Part shown: positions 43,335 through 56,529 of the stretch, one piece after another
Position numbering within the stretch: position 1 is the stretch's first letter
Layout: every line of letters begins with the position of its first letter
Origin: a candidate division TA06 bacterium
GTDB lineage: Bacteria > Hydrothermota > DG-26 > E44-bin18
Direction of reading: 5' to 3'
Length of the DNA: 64,000 nt
Assembly (NCBI GenBank): GCA_004376575.1
Contig: SOJN01000142.1
Location: forward strand, 1 to 64,000
Notes under the pieces: generated by a model
Database searches by the model: none
The model's input: the letters and a program-made list of their open reading frames with translations, nothing else
What the model was told of the DNA's origin: nothing
Position numbers and translations under genes: made by a program

Positions 43335-45002
43335 TCATGGGAAAATCCCCCGTCTCATGTACGCGGTCTCCAGACGAGAGAGTGCAACGATGTAGGCAGC
43401 AGTGCGCCAATCTACACTGAATTGCTTGGCTGTATCGCGAACCTTTCTATAGGCGGAGACCATCTTTTTGTGGAGCTTGGAATCCACCTCTTCGAGTTCC
43501 CAGAATTCGCTTCTCTTGTTCTGAAGCCACTCGAAGTAGCTGACGATGACACCGCCAGCGTTGCACAATATGTCTGGGAGCATGTCAATGCCTTTTTCTT
43601 CCAGGATTCTGTCGCCGTCAGGGTTTGTCGGTCCATTGGCTCCCTCAGCAACAAGCATCACTTTCAGCCATGGAGCAGTCTCAGCCGTAATCTGGTTCTC
43701 GAGGGCCGCAGGTATGAATATGTCTGCTTCTGTTTTGAGGAAGGCTTTGTGGCCAAGCGGTTTCGCTTTCGGATACCCTGCTATTACTTCATGATTGCTA
43801 TTGACATATTCCAGGAGGTTGTCGGGGTCGATCCCCCTTGTATTGATAATGGCTCCGCTCACATCTTCTACGGCAGTAAGTCTGGCACCGTGTGACTTCA
43901 GCAGACGGGAAGCCCAAGAACCTACATTACCGAATCCCTGTACGATATACGTCGCGCCGTCCAGGTCGAACCTCCGGTCCTTCGCCCACTCTTCTATAAG
44001 ATATACAACGCCCTGACCCGTTGCCTTGTCTCTGCCCAGGCTGCCGCCTGATTCAATTGGCTTCCCGGTGACCACGTGAATGCACCGATTCCGTTCGTGC
44101 GCGGGCATAGTTGAAAGGTATGTATCTAAAATCCACGCCATGATCTGTGAATTCGTGTTCACGTCGGGTGCAGGTATGTCGTATTCGGGTCCGATGGTGT
44201 TTCCCAATGAGTACGTGAAACGTCTGGTGATCCTTTGGAGTTCACCGATTGAATGTTTTGATGGATCGAACTTGATTCCCCCTTTGGCTCCACCGAATGG
44301 TATGTCCACAATCGCCGACTTCCAACTCATCCACGCGGCTAGGGATCTAACCTCATCGACGTCAACTCCTGGGTGAAAGCGGAGTCCGCCCTTAAATGGG
44401 CCGAGTATATCGTTATGCTGCACTCTGTAGCCTGTGAAAATCTTGATCCGGCCGTTGTCCATCACTACCGGAAAGTGAACCGTTATTTCATTCATCGTAT
44501 TTGCCAGAATCTCGCGAACGTTTGGCTCTAGATTCATAATGTCCGCAGCCTTGTTGAACTGCTCGAGCACACCTGCATACACGCTCTTCTTCAGTCCTTC
44601 AGTTACAACCCTCGTTTTCGTCCCCGGCTTTTGCTCATAATCCGAGCAGTGCCATACTCCACCCTCAGGCCGCGGAAGGTTACAGATTTCGTCCTGTGCA
44701 CAATTGGCACAGAGACCTCGGACCCTATCAGCAGCCATCTTCTCAGTTTCCGGTTCGGGCTTTAGAGCCAGCGGTGTGCTTATTAGCATGTCGCCGCTAA
44801 AGGGGTATGGTTGGTACAACAGTTTCCATTCCTTTGTCTTTGAGAGCGGACGTATCTCTTCAACCTTGGGTTCGACATGCTTCGCGACCGGTTTTCTTCG
44901 CTGCCTCATCCTCGGCGGGCTGACGGGGAGCGAGGTCTTACTCGCCTTCTTTGCTTGTCTGCCAGCCCCTGCCCTCTTCTTTGTTTTCACGGTCTTAGCC
45001 AT
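43335..45002 (-). CDS. gdhA: Glutamate dehydrogenase with Cys-rich N-terminal extension
   Basis: The 555-residue protein is about 135 residues longer than usual. The GDH core starts near residue 143 and has the catalytic lysine region PFGGAKGGIKFDPS, the dinucleotide loop VQGFGNVGSWASRLL, and ends RGIFP. The extension is Lys/Arg-rich (1-60) and then has a C-x2-C-x5-C-x11-C motif (Cys98, 101, 107, 119; GGVWHCSDY), likely a metal or Fe-S site. The ATG at 45002 follows AAAGGAGGTAGGTATC. The enzyme interconverts glutamate and 2-oxoglutarate plus ammonia. A sigma-54 type promoter lies upstream. Confidence 0.9.
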   Translation of the reverse strand: MAKTVKTKKRAGAGRQAKKASKTSLPVSPPRMRQRRKPVAKHVEPKVEEIRPLSKTKEWKLLYQPYPFSGDMLISTPLALKPEPETEKMAADRVRGLCANCAQDEICNLPRPEGGVWHCSDYEQKPGTKTRVVTEGLKKSVYAGVLEQFNKAADIMNLEPNVREILANTMNEITVHFPVVMDNGRIKIFTGYRVQHNDILGPFKGGLRFHPGVDVDEVRSLAAWMSWKSAIVDIPFGGAKGGIKFDPSKHSIGELQRITRRFTYSLGNTIGPEYDIPAPDVNTNSQIMAWILDTYLSTMPAHERNRCIHVVTGKPIESGGSLGRDKATGQGVVYLIEEWAKDRRFDLDGATYIVQGFGNVGSWASRLLKSHGARLTAVEDVSGAIINTRGIDPDNLLEYVNSNHEVIAGYPKAKPLGHKAFLKTEADIFIPAALENQITAETAPWLKVMLVAEGANGPTNPDGDRILEEKGIDMLPDILCNAGGVIVSYFEWLQNKRSEFWELEEVDSKLHKKMVSAYRKVRDTAKQFSVDWRTAAYIVALSRLETAYMRRGIFP

Positions 45003-45054
45003 GATACCTACCTCCTTTCGGTTTACCCTGGAGAACATACCCACTCCGACGTTA

Positions 45055-45070
45055 TGCGAATTCCGTGCCA
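45055..45070 (-). promoter_or_regulatory. Sigma-54 type promoter of the long glutamate dehydrogenase
   Basis: On the minus strand TGGCACG-GAAT-TCGCA (45070 to 45055) matches TGGCACG-N4-TTGC with one change (TC for TT); GG and GC are kept at correct spacing. It is about 53 bases upstream of the start codon, and the sigma-54 activator gene lies directly upstream. Confidence 0.6.
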
Positions 45071-45240
45071 ACCCGATGGGGATGGTTCTACTATCCGTCG
45101 GAAGACACAATGATGAGTAGAGGCTCCATCTTAAACCAATGGAGTGTAAGGTCTTATTGAAAGGGGGTCTTTCCTATGATTTGGTCCGGCACTTAGATGA
45201 TGCGTGCCAAGCATGTAGTCTTGCTGGGGAAATCTGAACC

Positions 45241-45271: not shown

Positions 45272-46624
45272 TCAATCCAATGAATTCTTCGGGGCTTTCA
45301 ATTTCTCACGCAGTGTCTTTCGATCGATTCCGAGGATTTCTGCAGCCCGAGTCTTGTTTCCTTCGACGCTCGCCAACACGTTCTGAATGTGCTCAGCTTC
45401 TACCTCAGTTAAGGTCCTGTCAAGCCCGGAACCGCGCAGAGCCGAAAAGCGCATAAGAGAGGGTAGGTCAGGAACTTCTATCAAATCCCCCTCCGTCATA
45501 ACTACAAGACGTTGGATGACGTTCTGCAATTCTCTCACATTTCCCGGCCACTGGTAGTTCCTCAGTACTACCAGGGCATTGTCAGAAAACTCGGGTGCGG
45601 GCTTACCCGATTCGGCGGCGAACTTGCCCGTGAAATACTTGATCAACTGCAGAATGTCGTCACCCCTCTTACGGAGCGGAGGCATGGCGATTGTTATCAC
45701 ATTTAGACGGTAGAAGAGATCTTCTCGGAATACTCCCTTGTCTACGAGGCCCAACAGATCCTTGTTTGTTGCTGCCACTATCCTCACGTCCGCGAATCTC
45801 AGCTTGCTTGAACCTACCATGCAGACTTCTTTGTCTTCGAGCACCCTGAGAAGTTTCACCTGCATTGAAGGACTGGTGTCGCTGATCTCATCCAAAAAGA
45901 TGGTGCCACCGTCGGCGGTCTGAAAGAAACCCGCGCGAGTTTCGGTTGCGCCTGTGAATGCGCCTTTAACATGACCAAAAAGCTCGCTCTCCAGCAAACC
46001 CTCAGGAATGCCGCCGCAGTTGACAGGCACGAACGGAGCGGATGCCCTTGAACTGCCATAGTGTATGGCTCTGGCAATAAGCTCCTTGCCTGTGCCGCTT
46101 TCGCCTGTTATGAGTACAGTGGCTATTGTTGATGCAGCTTTTTCAACAGCCTTGAGAACCTTAAGCATTACTTCTGACTCTCCAATCAGGCCGTGGCGGG
46201 CAGGCCGGGCCTGTCGCGCATCCTTCTCTCCGGCCATTCGGGCGTGCAGTTTGTCCAGCGCTCGGCGGACTGCTGAAAAAAGCTCTTCTTCTGTGAAAGG
46301 TTTGGGTAGATACTCTTCAGCTCCGGTTTTGACAGCCTCGACTGCCCCTTCCACTGTCGCATAACCCGTTATCATCATCACTTCGGTGTTTCTCAGGTTC
46401 TCCCTGACATGCCTTACCAGATCAAGACCACTTACCTTAGGCATCTTGAGGTCTGTGATGACCAGGTTGATATGCGTGCCTTCCAGGATCTTGAGTGCTT
46501 CAGCCACGCCCGGTGCAGTGAAGACCTGATAACCCTGTGATTCCAGGTTCCTTCTGAGTACTTCCAGGGTGTCCTTGGCGTCATCAACGACCAGCAAACG
46601 TTCTTTTTCAGCAGCGGTCGTCAT
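45272..46624 (-). CDS. Sigma-54-dependent response regulator (NtrC family)
   Basis: This 450-residue activator has receiver Asp58 (NLVITDLKMPKVSG), Walker A GESGTGKE, an intact GAFTGA loop, Walker B GGTIFLDEISD and a Fis-type HTH (NKTRAAEILGIDRKTLREKL). ATG 46624 has GGAG about 10 bases upstream; an upstream in-frame extension lies inside the kinase gene. It overlaps the kinase by 17 bases. With glutamate dehydrogenase genes on both sides and a sigma-54 type promoter ahead of one, it probably controls glutamate metabolism. Confidence 0.92.
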   Translation of the reverse strand: MTTAAEKERLLVVDDAKDTLEVLRRNLESQGYQVFTAPGVAEALKILEGTHINLVITDLKMPKVSGLDLVRHVRENLRNTEVMMITGYATVEGAVEAVKTGAEEYLPKPFTEEELFSAVRRALDKLHARMAGEKDARQARPARHGLIGESEVMLKVLKAVEKAASTIATVLITGESGTGKELIARAIHYGSSRASAPFVPVNCGGIPEGLLESELFGHVKGAFTGATETRAGFFQTADGGTIFLDEISDTSPSMQVKLLRVLEDKEVCMVGSSKLRFADVRIVAATNKDLLGLVDKGVFREDLFYRLNVITIAMPPLRKRGDDILQLIKYFTGKFAAESGKPAPEFSDNALVVLRNYQWPGNVRELQNVIQRLVVMTEGDLIEVPDLPSLMRFSALRGSGLDRTLTEVEAEHIQNVLASVEGNKTRAAEILGIDRKTLREKLKAPKNSLD

Positions 46625-48359
46625 TTTGGTCACTCTCCTCAGTGTCTTCCAGTTCAGCAACTGGCAGCTGAACCTCAAATCGTGCACCTTGGCCCGGCTT
46701 GCTTTCAACTTTGATAGAACCGCCATGCGAGGTTACAATGCCGTGGACTACAGGAAGGCCCAGACCCGTTCCCTGACCTACGTCTTTGGTCGTGAAGAAC
46801 GGGATGAATATCTGTTTGAGTACTTCTTTAGTCATGCCTGTGCCTGTGTCTTCTATTATGAGCGACACGTAATCCTCAGAACTTGCTGTCTGCACTATAA
46901 GCTTGCCACCATCCGGCATAGCATGTATTGCATTGACAGCAAGATTCACCAGAACCTGGTGCAGTTGCGCTGGGTCGACAGTCACGTCAGGGAGCCCGGG
47001 TGAAAGCACACGTACGAATTTAATTCCTTCCTTCACGCACCGCGACTCCAGAAAGTACAGGCCGTCCTCCACAAGACTGTTCAAATTCACCTTTGTTCTT
47101 TTCGATGGCATCTGTCGTGCAAACATCATCAGTTTTCTTATGACCTCCCGGGCGTGTAGAGAGGCCATCTCTATTCTTTCAATGTCCTGTCTGGTCTGTT
47201 CGGATAGTCCAGACGACTTCTTTGTGAGTTGAGCGAACCCAAGAATTGTCCCCAGTGGCTCGTTTAGTTCATGCGCAATACCGGCTGCGAGCTGTCCAAT
47301 TGTTGCCAGACGGTCAGCATGCCTGAGTTGATCCTGAAGATGTACTCTATCCTCCTCTGCCTTTTTGCGCTCGACGATCAACGCAACCTGCTTCGCCACG
47401 GCGTCGATGAGTCTCCGTTCCTCTCTGAGAAATGGTCCCTCATCTAGTTCGGGCTTCTTCTGCGAATAGACGATTTCCACCACACCCCTTTTTTCGCCTT
47501 GTACAATGATATCTGCTGTCTCTTTCTGAGGGTAATCCTTAAAACTAGATGTTGAGTACGAGCGGCCATGAACGGTTATCCTTGCGGAAGTGATTTCAGG
47601 ATATTGCCACGCAGGAGGAAGGAGCTGGACGATTCTCTCGAGAATCTCGTGGAGCGATATATCAGGCTGGGCAGACACCTGGGCGATACCATGAAGACAG
47701 GTCAGCTCCTTGACACGTTCGCGCAGTGCTGCCTGGGCACGCTGGTAGATGAGCGCTACTCCAAGGTTTCGCGCAACTCGCTCATAGGCTTCTATCTCAG
47801 ATTGTATGAAGTAGTTCGGCTTCTTGCTTTTCAATTGCAGAAGCCCGATATTTTCATCGGCCACCGAAAGGGGGATAATGGTGATCGAGCTGTAACTTCC
47901 ACCGAGTTCTGGTCCGTGGTTTCGACGAGAAGTCGAAGAAAGCCCGTTTTCGCCCGACCAGAAACTGCCCTTATCTGTGAAAAACGGGAGCGAGGGCTTA
48001 ACACGTCCACACATAATGTCTCCGCACAGACGCTCAGAGTCGTTTGACCCGCCCTCGACCGGGCAGGTGATTGTGCCATCTTCATGCTGTACGCAGCGCA
48101 TGATCTCGAAGTTGAACGACCGGTTTGTCCGCCGCATGAATTCAAAACGGATCGGATCTTCATTATCCTTCAGGCGGATCTCAACGGCATCACACCCGGA
48201 GAAGTCCTTAAGCATTTTTGAGACACCCTCGAGAAAGTTGATCCTGGGGACACCCCGGCTTGCATAGTGGAGTATCTGATGGGATAGAGCTCTGAAGTCC
48301 TCAGTGGTCTTATTGCCTGCGGGTTTTGTAGGAACCAACTTTGAGTGCTTTTTTCTCAT
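46608..48359 (-). CDS. Soluble sensor histidine kinase with two GAF-like domains
   Basis: This 583-residue kinase has no transmembrane segment, so it senses a cytoplasmic signal. The first GAF-like domain (about 25-210) carries four Cys (89, 99, 112, 117; in CPVEGG, LCGDIMCG) that could bind a cofactor. A second GAF-like region lies at about 220-330. HisKA is QLAAGIAHELNEPLGTILGF with His363; the HATPase has DTGTGMTKE and GQGTGLGLPVVHGI. It overlaps its response regulator gene. A weak -35-like TTGACT is seen upstream near 48470. Confidence 0.9.
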   Translation of the reverse strand: MRKKHSKLVPTKPAGNKTTEDFRALSHQILHYASRGVPRINFLEGVSKMLKDFSGCDAVEIRLKDNEDPIRFEFMRRTNRSFNFEIMRCVQHEDGTITCPVEGGSNDSERLCGDIMCGRVKPSLPFFTDKGSFWSGENGLSSTSRRNHGPELGGSYSSITIIPLSVADENIGLLQLKSKKPNYFIQSEIEAYERVARNLGVALIYQRAQAALRERVKELTCLHGIAQVSAQPDISLHEILERIVQLLPPAWQYPEITSARITVHGRSYSTSSFKDYPQKETADIIVQGEKRGVVEIVYSQKKPELDEGPFLREERRLIDAVAKQVALIVERKKAEEDRVHLQDQLRHADRLATIGQLAAGIAHELNEPLGTILGFAQLTKKSSGLSEQTRQDIERIEMASLHAREVIRKLMMFARQMPSKRTKVNLNSLVEDGLYFLESRCVKEGIKFVRVLSPGLPDVTVDPAQLHQVLVNLAVNAIHAMPDGGKLIVQTASSEDYVSLIIEDTGTGMTKEVLKQIFIPFFTTKDVGQGTGLGLPVVHGIVTSHGGSIKVESKPGQGARFEVQLPVAELEDTEESDQNDDRC

Positions 48360-48574: not shown

Positions 48575-49840
48575 TCAGGGGAAGATCCCGCGCTTCTTGT
48601 AGGCAGTCTCCAGGCGCGAAAGGGCAACGACATAGGCGGCTGTACGCCAGTCAGTGTCGAGCTTCTCCGCCCTATCACGGACCCGTTCGTAGGCATTTAT
48701 GATTATTCTGTGCAGCTTACTATCTACGTCTCCCAACTCCCAGAATTCACTACGCTTGTTCTGCAACCACTCGAAGTAGCTGACGATAACGCCTCCAGAG
48801 TTGCAGAGGATGTCTGGTATCAACGCTATTCCCTTGTCCTGCAGTACCCTGTCACCATCTGGATCAGTCGGACCGTTGGCTCCTTCAGCGACCAGTTTGA
48901 CGTTTAATAGTGGTGCTGTTTCAGATGTAATCTGATTCTCCAGCGCAGCAGGTATGAAGATATCGGCTTTCGTGCTGATGAAAGTCTTGTGGTCTAAAGG
49001 TTCAACCTCAGGGCAGCCTGCGACAAGTTGGTTACTCCTGCAGGCATATTCAAAGAGCCTGTCAGGGTCAATCCCATCCGCATTGGATATCGCACCACTG
49101 GAGTCTTCGACAGCAACGAGCTTTGAGCCGTGTGGCTTCATGAGCCGGGCTACCCATGAGCCCACGTTTCCGAAACCCTGAAGTATGTAGGTAGTACCAT
49201 CCAGCTTCAGTCCGTGGTCTTCTGCCCACTGCTCTATTAGAAACACGATGCCTTGGCCGGTCGCCTTGTCACGACCGAGACTTCCACCCGATTCAACTGG
49301 CTTGCCGGTGACCACGTGGGCAGAACGGTTCCGCTCAAGCGGAGGCATTGTCGATAGATATGTGTCCAGTATCCAGGCCATGATCTGGGCATTCGTGTTG
49401 ACGTCCGGTGCTGGAATATCGTACTCTGGGCCGATATTGCTACCCAAGGCGAAGGTAAACCGCCGGGTTATCCGCTCAAGTTCTGTTTGTGAGCACTTCG
49501 ATGGGTCAAACTGGATGCCACCTTTTGCTCCGCCGAACGGTATGTTGGTCAGCGCTCCTTTCCACGTCATCCACGTGGCCAGGGCCCTCACCTCATCTAT
49601 GTTGACGGAAGGATGGTACCGCAGGCCGCCCTTGAAGGGACCGAGTGCGGCATTGTGCTGTACCCTGTAGCCTGTGAACATGTCGATACGACCATCGTCC
49701 ATTCTCACCGGGAAGTTGACGGTTATCTCATTGGTGGTCTTTGAGAGGATCTTGCAGATATCTCTATCAAGTCCCATCAAGTCCGCGGCTTTATTGAATT
49801 GCTGTACTACATTTTCATAAAGGCTACTCTTCTTTTCCAT
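48575..49840 (-). CDS. gdhA: Glutamate dehydrogenase, standard length
   Basis: The 421-residue hexameric-type GDH has IPFGGAKGGIQFDPS (catalytic Lys region), LQGFGNVGSWVARLM (dinucleotide loop) and the same C-terminus as the longer copy (YKKRGIFP). The two cores are obvious paralogues with long identical blocks such as IGPEYDIPAPDVNTNAQIMA-type sequence. ATG 49840 follows CAGGAGGAGATT. Cofactor preference cannot be read safely. A separate promoter-like sequence lies upstream, so this copy may be expressed differently from the sigma-54 linked one. Confidence 0.93.
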   Translation of the reverse strand: MEKKSSLYENVVQQFNKAADLMGLDRDICKILSKTTNEITVNFPVRMDDGRIDMFTGYRVQHNAALGPFKGGLRYHPSVNIDEVRALATWMTWKGALTNIPFGGAKGGIQFDPSKCSQTELERITRRFTFALGSNIGPEYDIPAPDVNTNAQIMAWILDTYLSTMPPLERNRSAHVVTGKPVESGGSLGRDKATGQGIVFLIEQWAEDHGLKLDGTTYILQGFGNVGSWVARLMKPHGSKLVAVEDSSGAISNADGIDPDRLFEYACRSNQLVAGCPEVEPLDHKTFISTKADIFIPAALENQITSETAPLLNVKLVAEGANGPTDPDGDRVLQDKGIALIPDILCNSGGVIVSYFEWLQNKRSEFWELGDVDSKLHRIIINAYERVRDRAEKLDTDWRTAAYVVALSRLETAYKKRGIFP

Positions 49841-49878
49841 AATCTCCTCCTGTGAGAGTATACCCTCCAAGCATGTAC

Positions 49879-50039: not shown

Positions 50040-51623
50040 CTACTTGCCAAGTATCTTCTCGACTTCCCCTTTGTCGAGGTCCATGACGTATGGGATACCG
50101 CTTATCTCAGAAGCTTCCCGGGTCAGCGCCGCAATATCATCGCGCGATATGTGCTCCAGGGCGAATTTTCTGCTGCCACACATAAGCTGGCGGAGTCCTT
50201 GAGCCAGACGTTCGTAGTATGTGTACAGGCCGAGTGCACCCGTAGGAATCTTCTCGAACTCTTTATCTCCCAGTTCCTTGCGCAGGGAACTGGCGGTAAC
50301 GAAAATCTCATCCTTGGTGTTGCCAAAACGTTCTATGTAGACTGGAACCAGATTCTGCTCGATGGTTTGCCCAATTGTCTTGCCTACCATTGCCGCTGCA
50401 ATGGGGGAACGAGCCATGCCAACGAGTTTCACAAACGGTGCACCCATGGCCAGCCCCTTGAAGATCAGGTCCTCAAAGGTGAATCCACCGGCCACTGCCA
50501 GTGCGGGCACGTACTCACCCTTATCAGCGAGCTTCTTGGTATACTGGTACACGAGCGAATGTATCTCGACTGGCGGCACTCCCCACTCATTCATCATCCG
50601 CCACGGGCTCATACCTGTGCCGCCGCCTGCACCATCAACGGTCAAGAGGTCGATCTTGTACTTGGATGCGAACTTGACAGCCCTTGCCAGGTCAGCCGGT
50701 CGATAAGCGCCAGTCTTCAGGAAGATATACTTTGCTCCTGCCTCGCGAAGTTCTTCCACCCTTTTTGCGAAGGACTCTTCGGAGACCATGCCCACGCGTG
50801 AATGCCGCTCGAACTCTTTGAACGCTCCGCGCTCGAATGCCTTGATCACATCCGGGTCAGTGGGATTAGGCAGGACCACGTAGCCCCGTTCATAGAGCAT
50901 CTGAGCTTTTTCCAGGTTGGTTATCTTTACCTCGCCACCGATATCTTTGGCGCCCTGACCCCACTTCAGTTCTATGCACTCAACCTTGAGCTTCTGGATG
51001 CCATATTCCTGCACGCCAAGTCGTGTATCCTCGACATTGGCCTGCAAGATGATTGCTCCGTAGCCATCGCGCTGATGGTCCTTGTAGAGCTTCACACGGT
51101 ACTTCAGATCGACCGTATCCACAACACGGCCCTTCTTAATCACTGACTCGGGGTCCATACCCACCACGTTTTCACCTATGGTTAGCCCTGTGCCTGCAAG
51201 CGCTGACCCAATTGCCAATCCATCCCAGTTGCTCTTTGCGATATTGGTGGAGCCGAGACCGGGGATGACCCATGGGAGACGGAACTTAATCCCCTTGTCG
51301 TGACCGAATGCTACCTCGAGATTGACTGCCGGGAAGATTGCCTTGTCACTGTCAGCTTCAATACCGTGTGCTCCAACAGCAGTGCCCATTATGTTGAAAT
51401 GGGAGTAGTCAACTGGATACACCTTCTCCGAGGCTGTAGTAATCACGCCAAACGGCTGCGGATAGATTACCTCGTGGCCCCTGTATGCGGATTTACCTAT
51501 CTCGCACATGCCTATACAGCCATCCACGCAGGTTACGCACATCCCGGATATGGGCGTTATTGAATCCTCTGTCCTGTTCTTTGTGAGAGTTGCGGCCGAA
51601 GAGTTTATCCTGGACAGTGACAT
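50040..51623 (-). CDS. GltB-like FMN-binding glutamate synthase domain protein
   Basis: The 527-residue protein matches the central/FMN part of the glutamate synthase large subunit (LLTVDGAGGGTGMSPWRMMN, ALAVAGGFTFEDLIFKGLAM). The N-terminal glutaminase domain is absent, and the usual CxxxxxC-type [3Fe-4S] loop after the barrel is not visible. Instead there is an N-terminal C-x2-C-x3-C-x3-C motif (CVTCVDGCIGMC, about residues 29-40). ATG 51623 follows AAAGGAG. It is the last gene of the bifurcation-type operon. It may take electrons from the GltD module to make glutamate from a separately supplied amide or ammonia; this is inferred. Confidence 0.82.
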   Translation of the reverse strand: MSLSRINSSAATLTKNRTEDSITPISGMCVTCVDGCIGMCEIGKSAYRGHEVIYPQPFGVITTASEKVYPVDYSHFNIMGTAVGAHGIEADSDKAIFPAVNLEVAFGHDKGIKFRLPWVIPGLGSTNIAKSNWDGLAIGSALAGTGLTIGENVVGMDPESVIKKGRVVDTVDLKYRVKLYKDHQRDGYGAIILQANVEDTRLGVQEYGIQKLKVECIELKWGQGAKDIGGEVKITNLEKAQMLYERGYVVLPNPTDPDVIKAFERGAFKEFERHSRVGMVSEESFAKRVEELREAGAKYIFLKTGAYRPADLARAVKFASKYKIDLLTVDGAGGGTGMSPWRMMNEWGVPPVEIHSLVYQYTKKLADKGEYVPALAVAGGFTFEDLIFKGLAMGAPFVKLVGMARSPIAAAMVGKTIGQTIEQNLVPVYIERFGNTKDEIFVTASSLRKELGDKEFEKIPTGALGLYTYYERLAQGLRQLMCGSRKFALEHISRDDIAALTREASEISGIPYVMDLDKGEVEKILGK

Positions 51624-51628
51624 GGTGG

Positions 51629-52324
51629 TCAACTCCTTTCCTTTGATTCAGTTTTCTTTATCTCGCAGGCTACACATGGGTCCATGTAGCACATCATATC
51701 GTCGAACTGTTCCTTTTCCACGCATGGCGGGCTCAGATTGGCACAAGCCCCGCATATGGCTTTTTCTGGGTCCGTAAAGGTGCACCTGAGCTGGCAGGCT
51801 GGACAGACATACATACATCCACCGCAGAGTCGACATTCCTCTGACCGGACATCGAAAGGCGTACCTATGTCTCTGTTTTCACCACGCCCACGAAAGCCGA
51901 TGGCCTTCCCCATCATCTGTTCTTCGCACATCCTCACGCAAAGTCCGCAAAGGATGCAGTCTTCGTGCTCCTGCCTGAAGCGCTGCTGGCGCACGTTGTG
52001 GGCCGAAGCCAGGTCCTGTATTGTCTTCGACTGCGGGCACGATGCCAGAAGGAGTTCAAGGACCATCTTGCGAGCTTTCAGGACTCGTACCGAGGCAGTC
52101 CGAACCTTGAGCCCCTCCTCAGCCGGGTAAGTGCAAGACGACACGAGCTTAGCCTTAGGCCCTTCTCCAATCTCCACCACACAGAGGCGGCATGCACCGT
52201 AGGGTGAAAGCCCTTCCATGTAGCATAGAGTAGGTATGGGAAAACCCAGGAATTTAGCCGCTTCCAGGAGGGTTGCCCCTTTTTCGACTGAAACATCCAA
52301 TCCATTTATTTTTAGGGTGATCAA
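51629..52324 (-). CDS. HydC/NuoG-like 2Fe-2S and 4Fe-4S electron-transfer subunit
   Basis: This 231-residue protein has an N-terminal plant-type [2Fe-2S] ferredoxin domain (CYMEGLSPYGACRLCVVEIG ... SSC) and then a NuoG-like region (HEDCILCGLCVRMCEEQ). Further Cys groups are ECRLCGGCMYVCPACQLRC, CGACANLSPPC and CYMDPCVACEIKK, enough for about three more clusters. The start is TTG at 52324, overlapping the fusion gene's stop by 4 bases; this places ITLKINGLDVSVEKGATLL at the N-terminus as in the family. It probably wires NuoE/NuoF to ferredoxin or to the GltB-like subunit. Confidence 0.87.
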   Translation of the reverse strand: MITLKINGLDVSVEKGATLLEAAKFLGFPIPTLCYMEGLSPYGACRLCVVEIGEGPKAKLVSSCTYPAEEGLKVRTASVRVLKARKMVLELLLASCPQSKTIQDLASAHNVRQQRFRQEHEDCILCGLCVRMCEEQMMGKAIGFRGRGENRDIGTPFDVRSEECRLCGGCMYVCPACQLRCTFTDPEKAICGACANLSPPCVEKEQFDDMMCYMDPCVACEIKKTESKERS

Positions 52325-55300
52325 GCCTGTTCTTCTCCTCCTGTCAGGCCCTCTGTTTCCTCTTCTTGCTGTGTGAACTCCAGATCGCACCTGAGGCATC
52401 TTCTTGCCTCCTTGAGTCCATCTTCAATTGAAAGTGTTTTTTCTACTTCCTCGAAGCTCTGCCTCCGCGATTCTGCTGGGAGAGTGGAGGGCTTTGCCCT
52501 TCTGGCCTGAGCCAATTCGTCCTCGGTGATTGTGGCTGGCTCCAGGTAGAACTCCGGAAGGTGAACCTTCGGAGGTACCCTCAGCTCCTCACCCCGGAGG
52601 TATCTGTCAATCACTACAGCAGCCTTTTTTCCAGCGGCGATTGCATCAATGACAGTATTCGGCCCGGTAACCACGTCTCCGCCAGCGAATACCCCCGGCC
52701 GGCTCGTGGCGAGGGTCTCGGGATCGGCATGAAGCGTCCCCCGTTTGTTTATCTCAACACCCATGGCAGATATGAACTGAACATCAGGTTGTTCGCCGAT
52801 AGCTACGATAAGGGTATCTAAGTAAATGGTGTGTTCTGTTCCTGGCACAGGAACAGGTCTTCTTCTCCCGCTTGAATCGATCTTGCCCAGTTCATTCCTG
52901 ATGCATTCCATTCCGCTCAGATGGCCATTCTTGGTGCAAATCCTGGTGGGAGAGAGCAGGGTCTTTAATTCGATTCCTTCGTCCTGGGCAGCCTCGACCT
53001 CCTCTTCGAAGGCAGGCATTTCTTCAGGTGTTCGCCGGTAAATAACGGTGACACTTTCGACACCTTCCTGCCGGAGCGCCACCCTAGCCGCATCTATCGC
53101 GGAGTTGCCGCCTCCAATTACTCCCACGCGTCCCTTGGCCAGTTTCTTGCCGCGGAGGTTGAATGCTTTCAGGAACTGCATGGCTGGATAGACACCCTCG
53201 AGATCTTCGCCTTGGATATCCATCCGCCGGCTCTTATGTGCGCCCAGGGCCAGAAAGATTGCCTTGAAGCCGTCGTCGAAGAGGCTGTCAATAGTCATGT
53301 CGCGACCCAGGGCAGTACCAGCCTTCAGGGTCACGTTTTCGTCGATTAGTGAATCGATCTCCTTACGCAAGACTTCCCGGGGAAGACGGTACCCCGGGAT
53401 ACCGCTAAGCAGCATGCCGCCTGGCCGGTCCTCTGCCTCGAAGACAGTCACCTTGTATCCGCGGAGAGAAAGGTAGTGGGCGGTGCTGAGACCGGCTGGA
53501 CCTGAGCCCACTACGGCTACCTGCGGCATCTTCTGTTCAGTCTTGGTCAGCTTTTTTGGCTTGTACGTGGCAGGGTCAATCCGGTCAGTGACAAGGCGTT
53601 TCAGAGCACGAATCGCGATGGCCTGTCCTCCGCTGGTGCCCGCGCGGCACTTATCTTCGCAAGGATGGTGGCAGACCCGCGCACAGACAGAAGGGAAAGG
53701 ATTTGGCTCTCTGATAACCCGGTAGGCTTCTTCATATTCGCCACGCTGTATATGAGCAATGTAACGCCAGGCCTCAGTGCCCACGGGGCATGTGGACTGG
53801 CATGGGGCCCCCACCAGCTCTTTGCACACGGCCGCCGAGCAGCGCTTGTCTTTGATATGCTCAATGTATTCGTCCCGAAAGTAGTGGAGCGTTGACAACA
53901 CTGGATTGCAGGCTGATTGCCCCAGCCCGCACATGGATGTGTCCTTCACAGCCTGAGCAAGTTCCTCTAGAAGATCGAGTTTCTCAACGGTTGCATTTCC
54001 TTTTGATATGTCATCGAGAATCTCGTACATCCTCTGTGTCCCCTTGCGACAGGTGAAGCATTTGCCACATGATTCATCCTTCAGGAAGCTCATGAAGTAT
54101 TTCGTGACATCGACCATACACGTGTTCTCATCCATGGCAATCATGCCACCGGACCCCATGATCGACCCTGCCTCTGTAAGGCTGTCATAGTCTATTGGTA
54201 GGTCGAACCTGCTTGCCGGGATGCAGCCACCAGATGGGCCGCCTGTCTGGACCGCCTTGATTTTGGCTTTACCAGAGGGACCACCACCTATATCGTATAT
54301 GATCTCTCCGATGGTAATTCCCATTGGAACCTCGGCGAGACCGGTATTTCTGATCTTGCCGACCAGGCTGAAAATCTTGGTGCCCGTGTTGTTCTCAGTT
54401 CCTACCTTGGCGAACTGCTTTGCACCATTCGATATTATCAGTGGGATGTTGGCCCATGTTTCCACATTATTGATCACAGTGGGTTTGCTATCGATGCCTT
54501 TCTCGACGGGGTAGGGAGGTCTTTGCCGCGGCTCAGGCCTGACTCCTTCTATAGATCTCATCAAGGCAGTCTCTTCGCCGCAGACGAAGGCACCAGCTCC
54601 TTTGACAAGCCTTATGTTGAAAGAGAACTGTGTCCCAAGTATGTTCTCACCCAAAAGGCCCAGGTCACACGCTTGGCGGAGCGCGATTACGAGATGCTTG
54701 ATTGCCAGAGGATACTCGTTGCGGACGTATATCACGCCTTCCGTAGCACGGGTCCCGTATGCGCCTATCAACATTCCTTCTATCACGCTGTGCGGGTTGG
54801 CCTCAAGCACGCTCCTGTCCATATAGGCCCCGGGGTCACCCTCATCTGCGTTGCATACCAAGAACTTGCGCGCACCGTTTCGAGCTTGGGCCAGTAGCTC
54901 CCACTTCAAGCCGGTAGGAAAACCAGCACCACCTCGGCCCCGTAGTTTCGACACCTTGACTTGATTGAGCACCCATTCGGGGCTCCCTTTGGTAAGGGCT
55001 TTGCTCAGTGCAGAATAGCCCCCGTTCTCAAAATAGTTGTAGATGCGGATCGGGTCGACTTTCTCATTGCGAGAAAGTATGGTCCGCACCTGCCGCTTGT
55101 AAAAGGGGATGTCGTCCTGTTTCTCTACCGGATTGCCCGTCTCCGGGTCCTTGTACAACAGGTCCTCGATTACATCTCCGGCAGCGACAGCTTTGACAAT
55201 CCGCCCCATGTCATCGGAATCTATGTTCGGGTAGAAAGTCCTTCTCGGTTCGATGAGCGCCGAGGGTTCTGTTTCGCAGAAGCCGTGGCAGCCAGTGATT

Positions 55301-55491
55301 CGAAGATGGATTTTTTCGGTCAGCTTCTTCGCCAGAAGTTCCCTTTTTGCTATGCGGATTAGATCATTTGCACCGCTCGCCTGTCCACAGGTCCCAGCAG
55401 AAATGACTATGACGGGGATGCTCGGGTCTCGCCCGGCCACAAGAAGTGCTCTGAGCGCTTTGAGGTCATCGATAGAGCTGAGTCTTTCCAT
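52321..55491 (-). CDS. NuoF-GltD fusion: NADH-dehydrogenase flavoprotein fused to NADPH/FAD glutamate synthase small chain
   Basis: The protein has 1056 residues. Part one is HydB/NuoF-like: a thioredoxin-like 2Fe-2S region (Cys35, 68, 72), the FMN/NADH site (RGRGGAGFPTG 184-194; NADEGDPGAYMD 214-225; GAGAFVCGEETAL 298-310) and a 4Fe-4S site (Cys475, 478, 481, 521). Part two is GltD/NfnB-like: two Cys groups (551, 556, 564, 568; 603, 607, 611, 615), FAD loop VVGSGPAGLSTAHYL (about 650), NAD(P) loop VIGGGNSAIDAARVAL and FAD motif PGVFAGGDVV. It is one unbroken frame. The Stn-type electron-bifurcating transhydrogenase also joins these modules (from memory). It is the catalytic heart of the operon. 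Confidence 0.92.
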   Translation of the reverse strand: MERLSSIDDLKALRALLVAGRDPSIPVIVISAGTCGQASGANDLIRIAKRELLAKKLTEKIHLRITGCHGFCETEPSALIEPRRTFYPNIDSDDMGRIVKAVAAGDVIEDLLYKDPETGNPVEKQDDIPFYKRQVRTILSRNEKVDPIRIYNYFENGGYSALSKALTKGSPEWVLNQVKVSKLRGRGGAGFPTGLKWELLAQARNGARKFLVCNADEGDPGAYMDRSVLEANPHSVIEGMLIGAYGTRATEGVIYVRNEYPLAIKHLVIALRQACDLGLLGENILGTQFSFNIRLVKGAGAFVCGEETALMRSIEGVRPEPRQRPPYPVEKGIDSKPTVINNVETWANIPLIISNGAKQFAKVGTENNTGTKIFSLVGKIRNTGLAEVPMGITIGEIIYDIGGGPSGKAKIKAVQTGGPSGGCIPASRFDLPIDYDSLTEAGSIMGSGGMIAMDENTCMVDVTKYFMSFLKDESCGKCFTCRKGTQRMYEILDDISKGNATVEKLDLLEELAQAVKDTSMCGLGQSACNPVLSTLHYFRDEYIEHIKDKRCSAAVCKELVGAPCQSTCPVGTEAWRYIAHIQRGEYEEAYRVIREPNPFPSVCARVCHHPCEDKCRAGTSGGQAIAIRALKRLVTDRIDPATYKPKKLTKTEQKMPQVAVVGSGPAGLSTAHYLSLRGYKVTVFEAEDRPGGMLLSGIPGYRLPREVLRKEIDSLIDENVTLKAGTALGRDMTIDSLFDDGFKAIFLALGAHKSRRMDIQGEDLEGVYPAMQFLKAFNLRGKKLAKGRVGVIGGGNSAIDAARVALRQEGVESVTVIYRRTPEEMPAFEEEVEAAQDEGIELKTLLSPTRICTKNGHLSGMECIRNELGKIDSSGRRRPVPVPGTEHTIYLDTLIVAIGEQPDVQFISAMGVEINKRGTLHADPETLATSRPGVFAGGDVVTGPNTVIDAIAAGKKAAVVIDRYLRGEELRVPPKVHLPEFYLEPATITEDELAQARRAKPSTLPAESRRQSFEEVEKTLSIEDGLKEARRCLRCDLEFTQQEEETEGLTGGEEQA

Positions 55492-55521
55492 AGACGGCCA
55501 GTTCCTTGTCTGTCTGATCAG

Positions 55522-56406
55522 CTATTTGTCCGAAGAAGTGGAGTCATCACCATAGGATTGCGAATCAGTTTCTGCTATGTCCAGCATGTGACTTTTGCAC
55601 CCACGCCGGGAGCAGACCTGTATCATACCGCCCCCTCGAACAATCATCGGTATCATGGGCGCACCACAATCCGGGCAGTTCCAAGCACCAACAAGCTCAG
55701 TATGGCAATGCGGACAGAAAAAGTTAAGCACCGTATCCATCGGGATTTCGTACTCGGATTCGATGGCGTAGCTGCCATACAGGGAAGACAGCCTGAGCCA
55801 GCCGTGTTTTTGTCCAAAAGAGACGGTGACTCTTATTGACGGGTGACCGTCGATAGGGTGAGTCGGATCCATCAGGCTGTGGTTGCATCTTGCGCAACTG
55901 ACTTCGATCGGGAAAACTCGTCGGTCAGTCGCTACCTGGACCTTGTCCAAGCCGACCCGAGCTTTCTTCAGTATTCGCTTAACCTTAGCCCTGCCAACAT
56001 TGGAGAAGTAGTGACCGTCGATGACAACGATAGGTCCGAGGGCACACGCGCCAAGACAGTTGACTGTCTCCAGTGTGAACTCCTTGTCTCTGGTGGTTTC
56101 GCCGGCAGAGATCCCCAACTGGCGTTGGAATTCTTCAGCTATCATGGGTCCGCCGCGGACATGGCAGGCGGTACCCAGACACACCGATATGATGTGTTTG
56201 CCCCTGGGTTGCAGACTGAAGGATCTGTAGAATGTGGCGACCCCATATATTTCCGTAAGGGAACGACCTGTTCTTTCGGACACTGCTCTCAATGCAGCTT
56301 CGGGAAGGTAGCCATATTTTTTCTGGATGTCTTCCAGAATTGAGATGAGCTCACCCCGCTTCCCTTCGTGTTTTTTCAGTATTGCTGTAACGTCCGCTGA
56401 GTTCAT
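55522..56406 (-). CDS. NuoE-like 2Fe-2S subunit with zinc-ribbon-like C-terminal extension
   Basis: The 294-residue protein has a NuoE/HydA-type thioredoxin fold with [2Fe-2S] ligands Cys76, 81, 117, 121 (CLGTACHVRGGP; NCLGACALGP). NuoE is normally about 160 residues. The extra 130 residues contain eight Cys in CxxC-type pairs (171/174, 231/234, 244/247, 265/270; FCPHCHTEL, NCPDCGAPM), likely zinc ribbons or an extra cluster. It is the first gene of the operon, 30 bases before the fusion gene. A good sigma-70 promoter lies upstream. Confidence 0.88.
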   Translation of the reverse strand: MNSADVTAILKKHEGKRGELISILEDIQKKYGYLPEAALRAVSERTGRSLTEIYGVATFYRSFSLQPRGKHIISVCLGTACHVRGGPMIAEEFQRQLGISAGETTRDKEFTLETVNCLGACALGPIVVIDGHYFSNVGRAKVKRILKKARVGLDKVQVATDRRVFPIEVSCARCNHSLMDPTHPIDGHPSIRVTVSFGQKHGWLRLSSLYGSYAIESEYEIPMDTVLNFFCPHCHTELVGAWNCPDCGAPMIPMIVRGGGMIQVCSRRGCKSHMLDIAETDSQSYGDDSTSSDK

Positions 56407-56500
56407 CTGTTTGCTTCCTGCGGTGAAAACACCCGGAACTGAATGTGTCCGGAGCTCTTCAGGAATCGATTCTTGTCAAATGATAAGATAGGGAAATACA

Positions 56501-56529
56501 TTTATACTCTAATCATATGGGCGTGTCAA
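56501..56529 (-). promoter_or_regulatory. Sigma-70 promoter of the NuoE/NuoF-GltD operon
   Basis: On the minus strand TTGACA (56529-56524), 17-base spacer, TATAAA (56506-56501). The leader to the ATG at 56406 is about 90 bases. Confidence 0.75.

Follow-up and report, generated by a model that had tools for sequence, protein, structure and literature searches.

The DNA analysed here, referred to as the window, is a stretch of 64,000 nucleotides (positions 1 to 64,000 of contig SOJN01000142.1) from a candidate division TA06 bacterium with a source genome of 3.0 Mb in 150 contigs. On its minus strand lie four adjacent genes, designated E (NuoE), F (NuoF-GltD), H (HydC/BfuA-like) and G (GltB-like). 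On sequence comparison, the operon appears to join a core derived from the Bfu (HydABC-type) family to a third-substrate module of the GltB2 type. It is tentatively proposed that the four products form a soluble bifurcating complex, in which G is a glutamate/2-oxoglutarate module beside the glutamate dehydrogenases (GDHs) of the operon. An earlier note on this DNA had described a four-gene minus-strand operon with a promoter, and the open reading frames (ORFs), the gene identities (Pfam) and the promoter sequence are all confirmed. The features are:

56501..56529, minus strand: sigma-70-like promoter, TTGACA-17 nt-TATAAA, upstream of E, identified by reading the sequence
55522..56406, minus strand: E, NuoE/BfuC-like thioredoxin-fold [2Fe-2S] subunit, 294 amino acids (Pfam 2Fe-2S_thioredx, 167.7 bits)
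52321..55491, minus strand: F, NuoF-GltD, 1056 amino acids, with Complex1_51K, NADH_4Fe-4S, Fer4_20 and Pyr_redox_2 in a single frame (Pfam)
53824..55491, minus strand: residues 1-556 of F, the NuoF/BfuB part with the flavin mononucleotide (FMN)/NADH domain (Pfam and ligand columns)
52321..53823, minus strand: residues 557-1056 of F, a GltD/NfnB-type module replacing the B3/B4 ferredoxin domain (Pfam Fer4_20 and Pyr_redox_2; NCBIfam GltD-type models)
51629..52324, minus strand: H, HydC/HoxU/BfuA-like (Pfam Fer2_4 and 4Fe-4S dicluster); given as 51629-52399 by the ORF tool
50040..51632, minus strand: G, GltB2-like FMN triosephosphate isomerase (TIM)-barrel protein with an N-terminal CxxCxxxCxxxC, ORF of 530 amino acids (Pfam Glu_synthase, 56 bits, residues 282-403)

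The promoter is absent from the list produced by a consensus scan of the window (TTGACA-17-TATAAA at 56529-56501), because the scan demands a T at the last position (position 6). The true start of H is likely to be the TTG at 52324, which overlaps the stop of F and gives a protein of 231 amino acids. G likely starts at the ATG at 51623, since four of five homologues start with the same MSL/MSF. E and F are separated by 30 bases, and F/H and H/G overlap by a few bases.

A scan of the alignment of G against 84,980 species genomes identified at least 556 confirmed relatives. The best 80 of these (L023-L102; 75-88% identity, near full length) were examined; they are the closest relatives by construction, and the rest need not share the operon. 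H ends 163 bases or fewer upstream of G in all 80, and E, F and H are all present at each of the 62 loci with more than 5 kb upstream of G, the other 18 stopping too soon. This recurrence in 62 of 62 loci indicates that the gene order is not due to chance. It is also the outcome of the check suggested in the earlier note, that the GltB-like gene should remain a neighbour of the NuoF gene in related genomes. In the tree output, the 80 loci fall into at least 16 named phyla, mostly of uncultured bacteria. They include Planctomycetota, Zixiibacteriota, Latescibacterota, Ignavibacteriota, Bacteroidota, Acidobacteriota, Myxococcota, Armatimonadota and Bacillota, these labels being NCBI names, and most of the records metagenome assemblies.

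The core subunits E, F and H

The NuoF/BfuB part of F contains the B1 cluster site (C475, C478, C481 and C521) and the B2 cluster site (C458, S496, H545, C551 and C556), the latter aligning with C438, C476, H525, C531 and C536 of the NiFe-Bfu structure 7t2r (chain 7t2r_B). The alignment of F comprises 57 GltD-type and 26 ferredoxin-type rows, 81 of them from G loci and 2 (one per type) from elsewhere in the window's genome. The four B1 cysteines and C458, H545, C551 and C556 of B2 are invariant in both sets (57/57 and 26/26), and position 496 varies among T, S, A and C across the 83 rows. PMC9304861 assigns those B2 residues to a special [2Fe-2S] site as its ligands, and the B2 histidine is reported there to be missing from non-bifurcating homologues. 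The previously noticed likeness to the HydABC/Stn core is borne out. For a further [2Fe-2S] site, B5, which lies in the N-terminal part of BfuB, the candidate ligands in the window are C35 (49 of 83 rows) and C68 and C72 (80 of 83, with gaps in the other three).

Beyond residue 556, F continues as the GltD module. Eight of its cysteines are kept in at least 52 of the 57 fusion rows, and by family it would hold two [4Fe-4S] clusters and flavin adenine dinucleotide (FAD), and use NADPH. The fusion described in the earlier note is a single in-frame gene in the window and is found at 42 of the 62 loci. It is not essential to the operon, however, since the remaining 20 have the two-cluster ferredoxin domain of canonical BfuB in that place. 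On a tree of the NuoF part (79 G-linked rows) the distribution of the ferredoxin and GltD forms takes 10 changes, of which starred branches force at least 5; with three extra rows there are 11 changes, 5 forced. Both are quick trees with no bootstraps. This suggests that GltD has replaced the ferredoxin domain, or the reverse, several times. A second NuoF-GltD fusion of 1035 amino acids, without G, is present elsewhere in the same genome (C23, L015 1641-9533), and downstream of it are proteins of 588 and 1009 amino acids that look, by eye, BfuA-like and HdrA-like.

In E, the [2Fe-2S] thioredoxin-fold part occupies residues 7-149 and is followed by a C-terminal zinc-ribbon-like domain. This domain is found at 61 of the 65 loci holding E (from the best 80). 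In L018 it is encoded by a gene of its own and gives weak matches to zinc ribbons. H has a [2Fe-2S] and two [4Fe-4S] motifs and then an eight-cysteine C-terminal tail (C177-C220), the cysteines of which are present in 79-81 of 81 rows. The alignment of H to solved chains stops at residue 190 (9mqx_A, the closest) or 185 (8a6t_A). The AlphaFold2 model of H is poor (predicted local distance difference test (pLDDT) 58.8, most of residues 119-231 below 50) and uninformative on the tail. From its cysteines, the tail may hold one or two extra metal sites toward G. The H-cluster domain (Fe_hyd_lg_C) was sought in H with Pfam and not found, in agreement with the claim that the operon has no hydrogenase subunit.

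Two features of F weigh against a bifurcating complex in the window. The B3/B4 ferredoxin domain of known bifurcating members is absent, and only 3 of the 4 B5 cysteines are present. It is possible that the same complex carries out glutamate chemistry without bifurcation. It would then be a multi-entry reductase, with G fed by NADH (at the FMN of F) or NADPH (at GltD), in the manner of a glutamate synthase with two donors. A HydB of Syntrophomonas that lacks B3/B4 is reported in PMC11406978 not to bifurcate. In NADPH-glutamate synthase the GltD subunit supplies the FMN subunit through two [4Fe-4S] clusters and one [3Fe-4S] cluster (PMC8097209). Set against this are the B2 ligands tied to bifurcation, which are kept in all 57 GltD-type rows, and the recurrence of ferredoxin-type versions within the same operon family. 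A complex without bifurcation is considered unlikely, and a bifurcating one is tentatively preferred.

In genome G105 the NuoF-GltD gene is truncated and lies ~460 kb from H and G, with a GltD end adjoining H and G; this split may be an assembly fault. The operon in G088, G093 and G102 is interrupted at contig ends only. A small ORF, resembling an insertion, stands between H and G in L020 (11264-11620), L131 (15143-15574) and L133 (14156-14566), and reads like a four-helix-bundle (S23/IVS-type) protein. In two families of the window's phylum, E is parted from F by regulator-like genes and the following protein:

L131 7890-9239 (Pfam), L132 11084-12358 and L134 4507-5769: Fe_hyd_lg_C-like protein

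A hydrogenase function was considered and rejected: H has no H-cluster, and in this neighbour the P1 and P2 patterns of the H-cluster are missing in 3 of 3, with a P3-like pattern in 2 of 3.

Subunit G and its relation to glutamate synthase

AlphaFold2 (81 sequences) gives a confident barrel for G (pLDDT 84.6, predicted template modelling score 0.87), with residues 1-31 and 56-69 low. A Foldseek search with this model places glutamate synthase (7mfm_G, 1ofd_A) at the top, followed by inosine monophosphate dehydrogenases and glycolate oxidases. In a profile comparison, G aligns with the archaeal-type GltB2 of its own genome over 315 columns (probability 73, E 3e-5). CxxCxxxCxxxC lies opposite a cluster motif of the ferredoxin type, E154 opposite the E of TGEG, and ELKWGQGAK opposite QIKIGQGAK, so that E154, K223, Q226 and K229 fall on identical residues. 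Against one full-length GltB, only the C-terminal half is aligned (probability 13).

By motif, the paired residues correspond to E903, K966, Q969 and K972 of 1llw, the numbers being counted along the sequence. Together with R992, these are what we take to be residues of the 2-oxoglutarate site of glutamate synthase. The four are present in G in 81 of 81 rows, and R249, the candidate counterpart of R992, in 80. Among distant or additional G sequences, down to 41% identity, E154, K223, Q226 and K229 are always kept and R249 is L in three. The only conserved cysteines in the 81 rows are C32, C35, C39 and C43; three are invariant and C35 is found in 80, the next most kept being C219 (39 rows) and C485 (23 rows). 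The loop SPWRMMNEWG is also conserved, unlike in glutamate synthase. A search of NCBIfam found no curated family for G.

The identification of the last gene as GltB-like stands; G has the FMN barrel and the Glu_synthase match, and lacks other parts of a glutamate synthase. Class II glutamine amidotransferase and GXGXG domains are absent from the seven proteins scanned between 45272 and 56406 (Pfam), and the [3Fe-4S] cysteines of glutamate synthase are absent from G in the 81 rows. The absences weigh against the proposed glutamate-linked complex, as do the following results. The match of R249 to R992, at the end of the same helix, was made by eye, and the profile alignment pairs that arginine with Q244. 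A PDB sequence search with G returned no glutamate synthase; the designed TIM barrels that appeared there were taken as spurious. A second aligner ranks type-2 isopentenyl diphosphate (IPP) isomerases and glycolate oxidases first for the G model (Z ~25), and therefore the fold suits several FMN enzymes. Lastly, 20 stretches around G were mapped in 246 genomes of one phylum (taken as Planctomycetota), and all 17 of the distant relatives among them (41-64% identity) lack E, F or H alongside. Of the other stretches, L175 and L176 carry all four genes and L174 ends within H. The four-gene unit is therefore a property of one large G subfamily. Seven of the 17 stand-alone relatives have haem-oxygenase-like iron proteins as partners, which points to chemistry of another kind.

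These seven (L162, L164, L165, L167, L169, L178 and L179; 53-56% identity) have one to three Haem_oxygenas_2-like genes beside G, confirmed with Pfam in L162, L164 and L165, and in five of the seven there is also a histidine kinase with a sigma-54 response regulator. A RidA-like ORF is found at L162, L169 and L178 (Pfam in L169), and a GDH-like ORF of 916-920 amino acids at L169 and L178 (Pfam in one); these two kinds of neighbour count in favour of the glutamate assignment. A separate stand-alone branch (L160, L161, L163, L168, L170, L171 and L177; 62-64% identity, 557-579 amino acids) adjoins a MoxR-like gene set, with MoxR confirmed by Pfam in L160 only.

It could be that the complex is of the Bfu type and that G acts on a different substrate, such as another 2-oxo acid, an imine or an amine, its likeness to glutamate synthase being ancestral only. 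The likeness of the fold to those of IPP isomerase and glycolate oxidase, the departing SPWRMMNEWG loop and the Haem_oxygenas_2 or MoxR-like neighbours of the stand-alone relatives would fit this. The persistence of E154, K223, Q226 and K229 in the most distant sequences, and the recurrence of GDH or nitrogen genes near several branches of the G family, would not. A different substrate is considered unlikely, and glutamate/2-oxoglutarate is tentatively preferred.

Neighbouring genes and nitrogen metabolism

The borders of the operon in the earlier note (50040-56529) enclose the four genes and proved too narrow, as further genes continue on the same strand to 43335:

48575..49870, minus strand: first GDH, the next gene after G (Pfam ELFV_dehydrog, 230.8 bits)
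46608..48359, minus strand: histidine kinase with a GAF-like region (Pfam HisKA, HATPase_c)
45272..46726, minus strand: sigma-54 response regulator of the NtrC type (Pfam Sigma54_activat, Response_reg, HTH_8)
43335..45110, minus strand: second GDH, with an N-terminal cysteine-rich domain (ORF and sequence; GDH by PF00208)

The cysteine-rich domain of the second GDH (LCANC...C...GGVWHCSDY) resembles, by eye, a small protein that other loci encode upstream of E. Of the 80 homologous loci, 19 have this protein, in most cases with its gene placed after the regulators and before E.

Among 147 genomes of the window's phylum, G was found in 39 (two being weak matches to other GltB2-like proteins, and several being fragments) and GDH in at least 141. 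In 21 of 36 G stretches, including the window with its two, a GDH lies on the same strand; nine of these were picked because a GDH had already been seen nearby, and several of the stretches without one end at contig ends. The 36 are from all of the matching genomes except G026, G031 and G102. A lone divergent G (42% identity) lies beside a full-length GltB, with neighbours that by eye are glutamine synthetase (GlnA), PII (GlnB) and an ammonium transporter (Amt).

Of 53 homologous loci with at least 4 kb upstream of E, 30 have a histidine kinase and a response regulator no more than 5 kb ahead of that gene. Downstream of G, a response regulator is found in 1 of 35 loci and a histidine kinase in 2 of 35. 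A sigma-54-like site precedes E in 32 of 63 homologous loci at p <=0.05 against letter shuffles, using a general sigma-54 consensus. Sigma-54 control was rejected for the window, where no site upstream of E scores above the shuffles.

The proximity of GDH must be weighed against its wider distribution. A GDH lies within 5 kb in only 11 of the 65 loci holding E. In three genomes without G (G006, G011 and G023; L180-L182), a GDH directly follows an operon that is of the Stn type by similarity, with E, a ferredoxin-type F and a protein matching GltD and H. GDH adjacency alone is therefore no proof that glutamate is the substrate of G; GDH is found with complexes of the Bfu type in general, possibly because they supply NADPH. 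Such operons would also fit a third explanation, that the system is essentially an Stn/Nfn-like transhydrogenase (NADH, NADPH and ferredoxin) serving GDH, with G as an accessory or redox-sensing flavoprotein. The GltD module comes from an NADPH-using family, and the dedicated histidine kinase and sigma-54 regulator would suit this role for the complex. G, however, is 75-88% identical across phyla in the best 80 loci and its active-site-like residues are invariant, as for an enzyme. The third explanation is considered quite improbable. The link to glutamate made in the earlier note is partly sustained. The GDHs of the operon, the lone G in a cluster resembling those for ammonium assimilation and the kept active-site residues speak for it, and the GDHs beside G-less Stn-type operons do not.

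It was also considered whether G replaces the normal glutamate synthase, as GXGXG goes unmatched in 39 of 49 genomes that carry G. This was rejected, as many genomes without G also lack it and the control in 246 genomes is not significant, a result that counts against the proposed reading. A GXGXG match at E <1e-20 is found in 6 of 29 G-bearing and 75 of 217 other Planctomycetota (Fisher p 0.15), and any GXGXG match in 6 of 29 and 83 of 217 (p 0.07). Within the window's phylum, just 7 of 147 genomes have GXGXG. Absence of GltB judged by PF04898 (5/147 genomes) was not used, as that model matches archaeal-type GltB2 weakly. The window's own genome has an archaeal-type split glutamate synthase, GltB1, GltB2 and GltB3 (Pfam; C127, L140 4320-7652). 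Close to this set are an RnfC-like gene and others that look like further Rnf genes.

Proposed mechanism and known systems

For E-F-H-G as a glutamate-linked bifurcating complex, we infer complex formation, cofactors, substrate, direction and bifurcation as follows. NADH would be oxidised at the FMN of F, and electrons would pass via B1 and H to G, which the eight-cysteine tail of H could reach. B2 would lead to the exchangeable C-terminal module of F, through which a second carrier would enter or leave: NADP(H) via GltD here, and ferredoxin in the sister form. G would be an FMN/[4Fe-4S] enzyme of the glutamate synthase type, with no glutaminase domain, that converts 2-oxoglutarate plus ammonia (2-iminoglutarate) to glutamate and back, and would work alongside the GDHs of the operon. 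In the likeliest direction, glutamate formation would be the downhill branch, by means of which NADH would reduce NADP+ (here) or ferredoxin (sister form).

The potential of glutamate/2-oxoglutarate is near -120 mV, that of NADH is -320 mV and that of ferredoxin is below -420 mV. Glutamate formation could therefore pay for reducing ferredoxin or a reduced NADP pool. The boldest version is an energy-conserving, ammonia-dependent glutamate synthase, in which glutamate formation is the exergonic branch of a Bfu-type enzyme, NADH reduces ferredoxin or NADP+, and the low-potential carrier has been switched by repeated domain replacement. As a whole this is speculative and rather unlikely.

Hydrogen, formate, CO, aldehydes and NADPH are partners of the Bfu core. 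Should G be a glutamate module, ammonium assimilation or glutamate oxidation would be added to them, and some of the energy released on forming glutamate could be conserved in reduced ferredoxin or NADPH. The operon may thus be an undescribed way to tie cellular redox power to glutamate metabolism; a literature search of limited reach found no description of it. The repeated exchange of ferredoxin and GltD modules at one fixed point is a natural experiment on the choice of low-potential partner in bifurcating enzymes.

Of the known systems, NADPH and archaeal-type glutamate synthases (GltBD; GltB1/2/3) share with the operon the FMN barrel, several aligned active-site residues and electron entry through GltD. 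According to PMC8097209, the FMN of glutamate synthase reduces 2-iminoglutarate. The operon differs in lacking the glutaminase, GXGXG and the [3Fe-4S] cysteines, and in adding an NADH-linked core of the Bfu type. The difference from group A3 FeFe-hydrogenases is that H lacks the H-cluster domain. The Stn/NfnABC transhydrogenases (PMC7483475 and PMC10482914) likewise link NADH and NADPH with NuoE, NuoF and GltD modules. In these, it is a NuoG-like subunit that carries the GltD part, the ferredoxin domain of NuoF is retained and there is no GltB-like subunit, whereas here GltD is fused to NuoF.

In the sub-type I BfuABC FeFe-hydrogenase of Hydrogenedentota (PMC11406978), the B3/B4 domain of BfuB is likewise swapped for a DPD_II and FAD/NAD(P) module, and the fusion as such is therefore known. 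Its BfuA has an H-cluster, whereas the operon described here has none and has G instead. The main text of PMC9304861, on the Bfu family, does not use the words glutamate and GltB, and the paper lists 17 BfuB clades without an assigned function. By the strict definition of that family the window complex falls outside it, because B3/B4 is absent and GltD is in that place; the sister form has B3/B4. The operon shares with the family (PMC9304861) a core of the NuoE/NuoF/HydA-N type with the BfuB FMN/NADH domain, the B1 and B2 ligands and the BfuC [2Fe-2S] site, and, in the proposed complex, the coupling of a third substrate through a BfuA-like subunit. What appears to set it apart is a GltB2-like FMN protein as the third-substrate module, together with an eight-cysteine tail on the BfuA-like subunit H.

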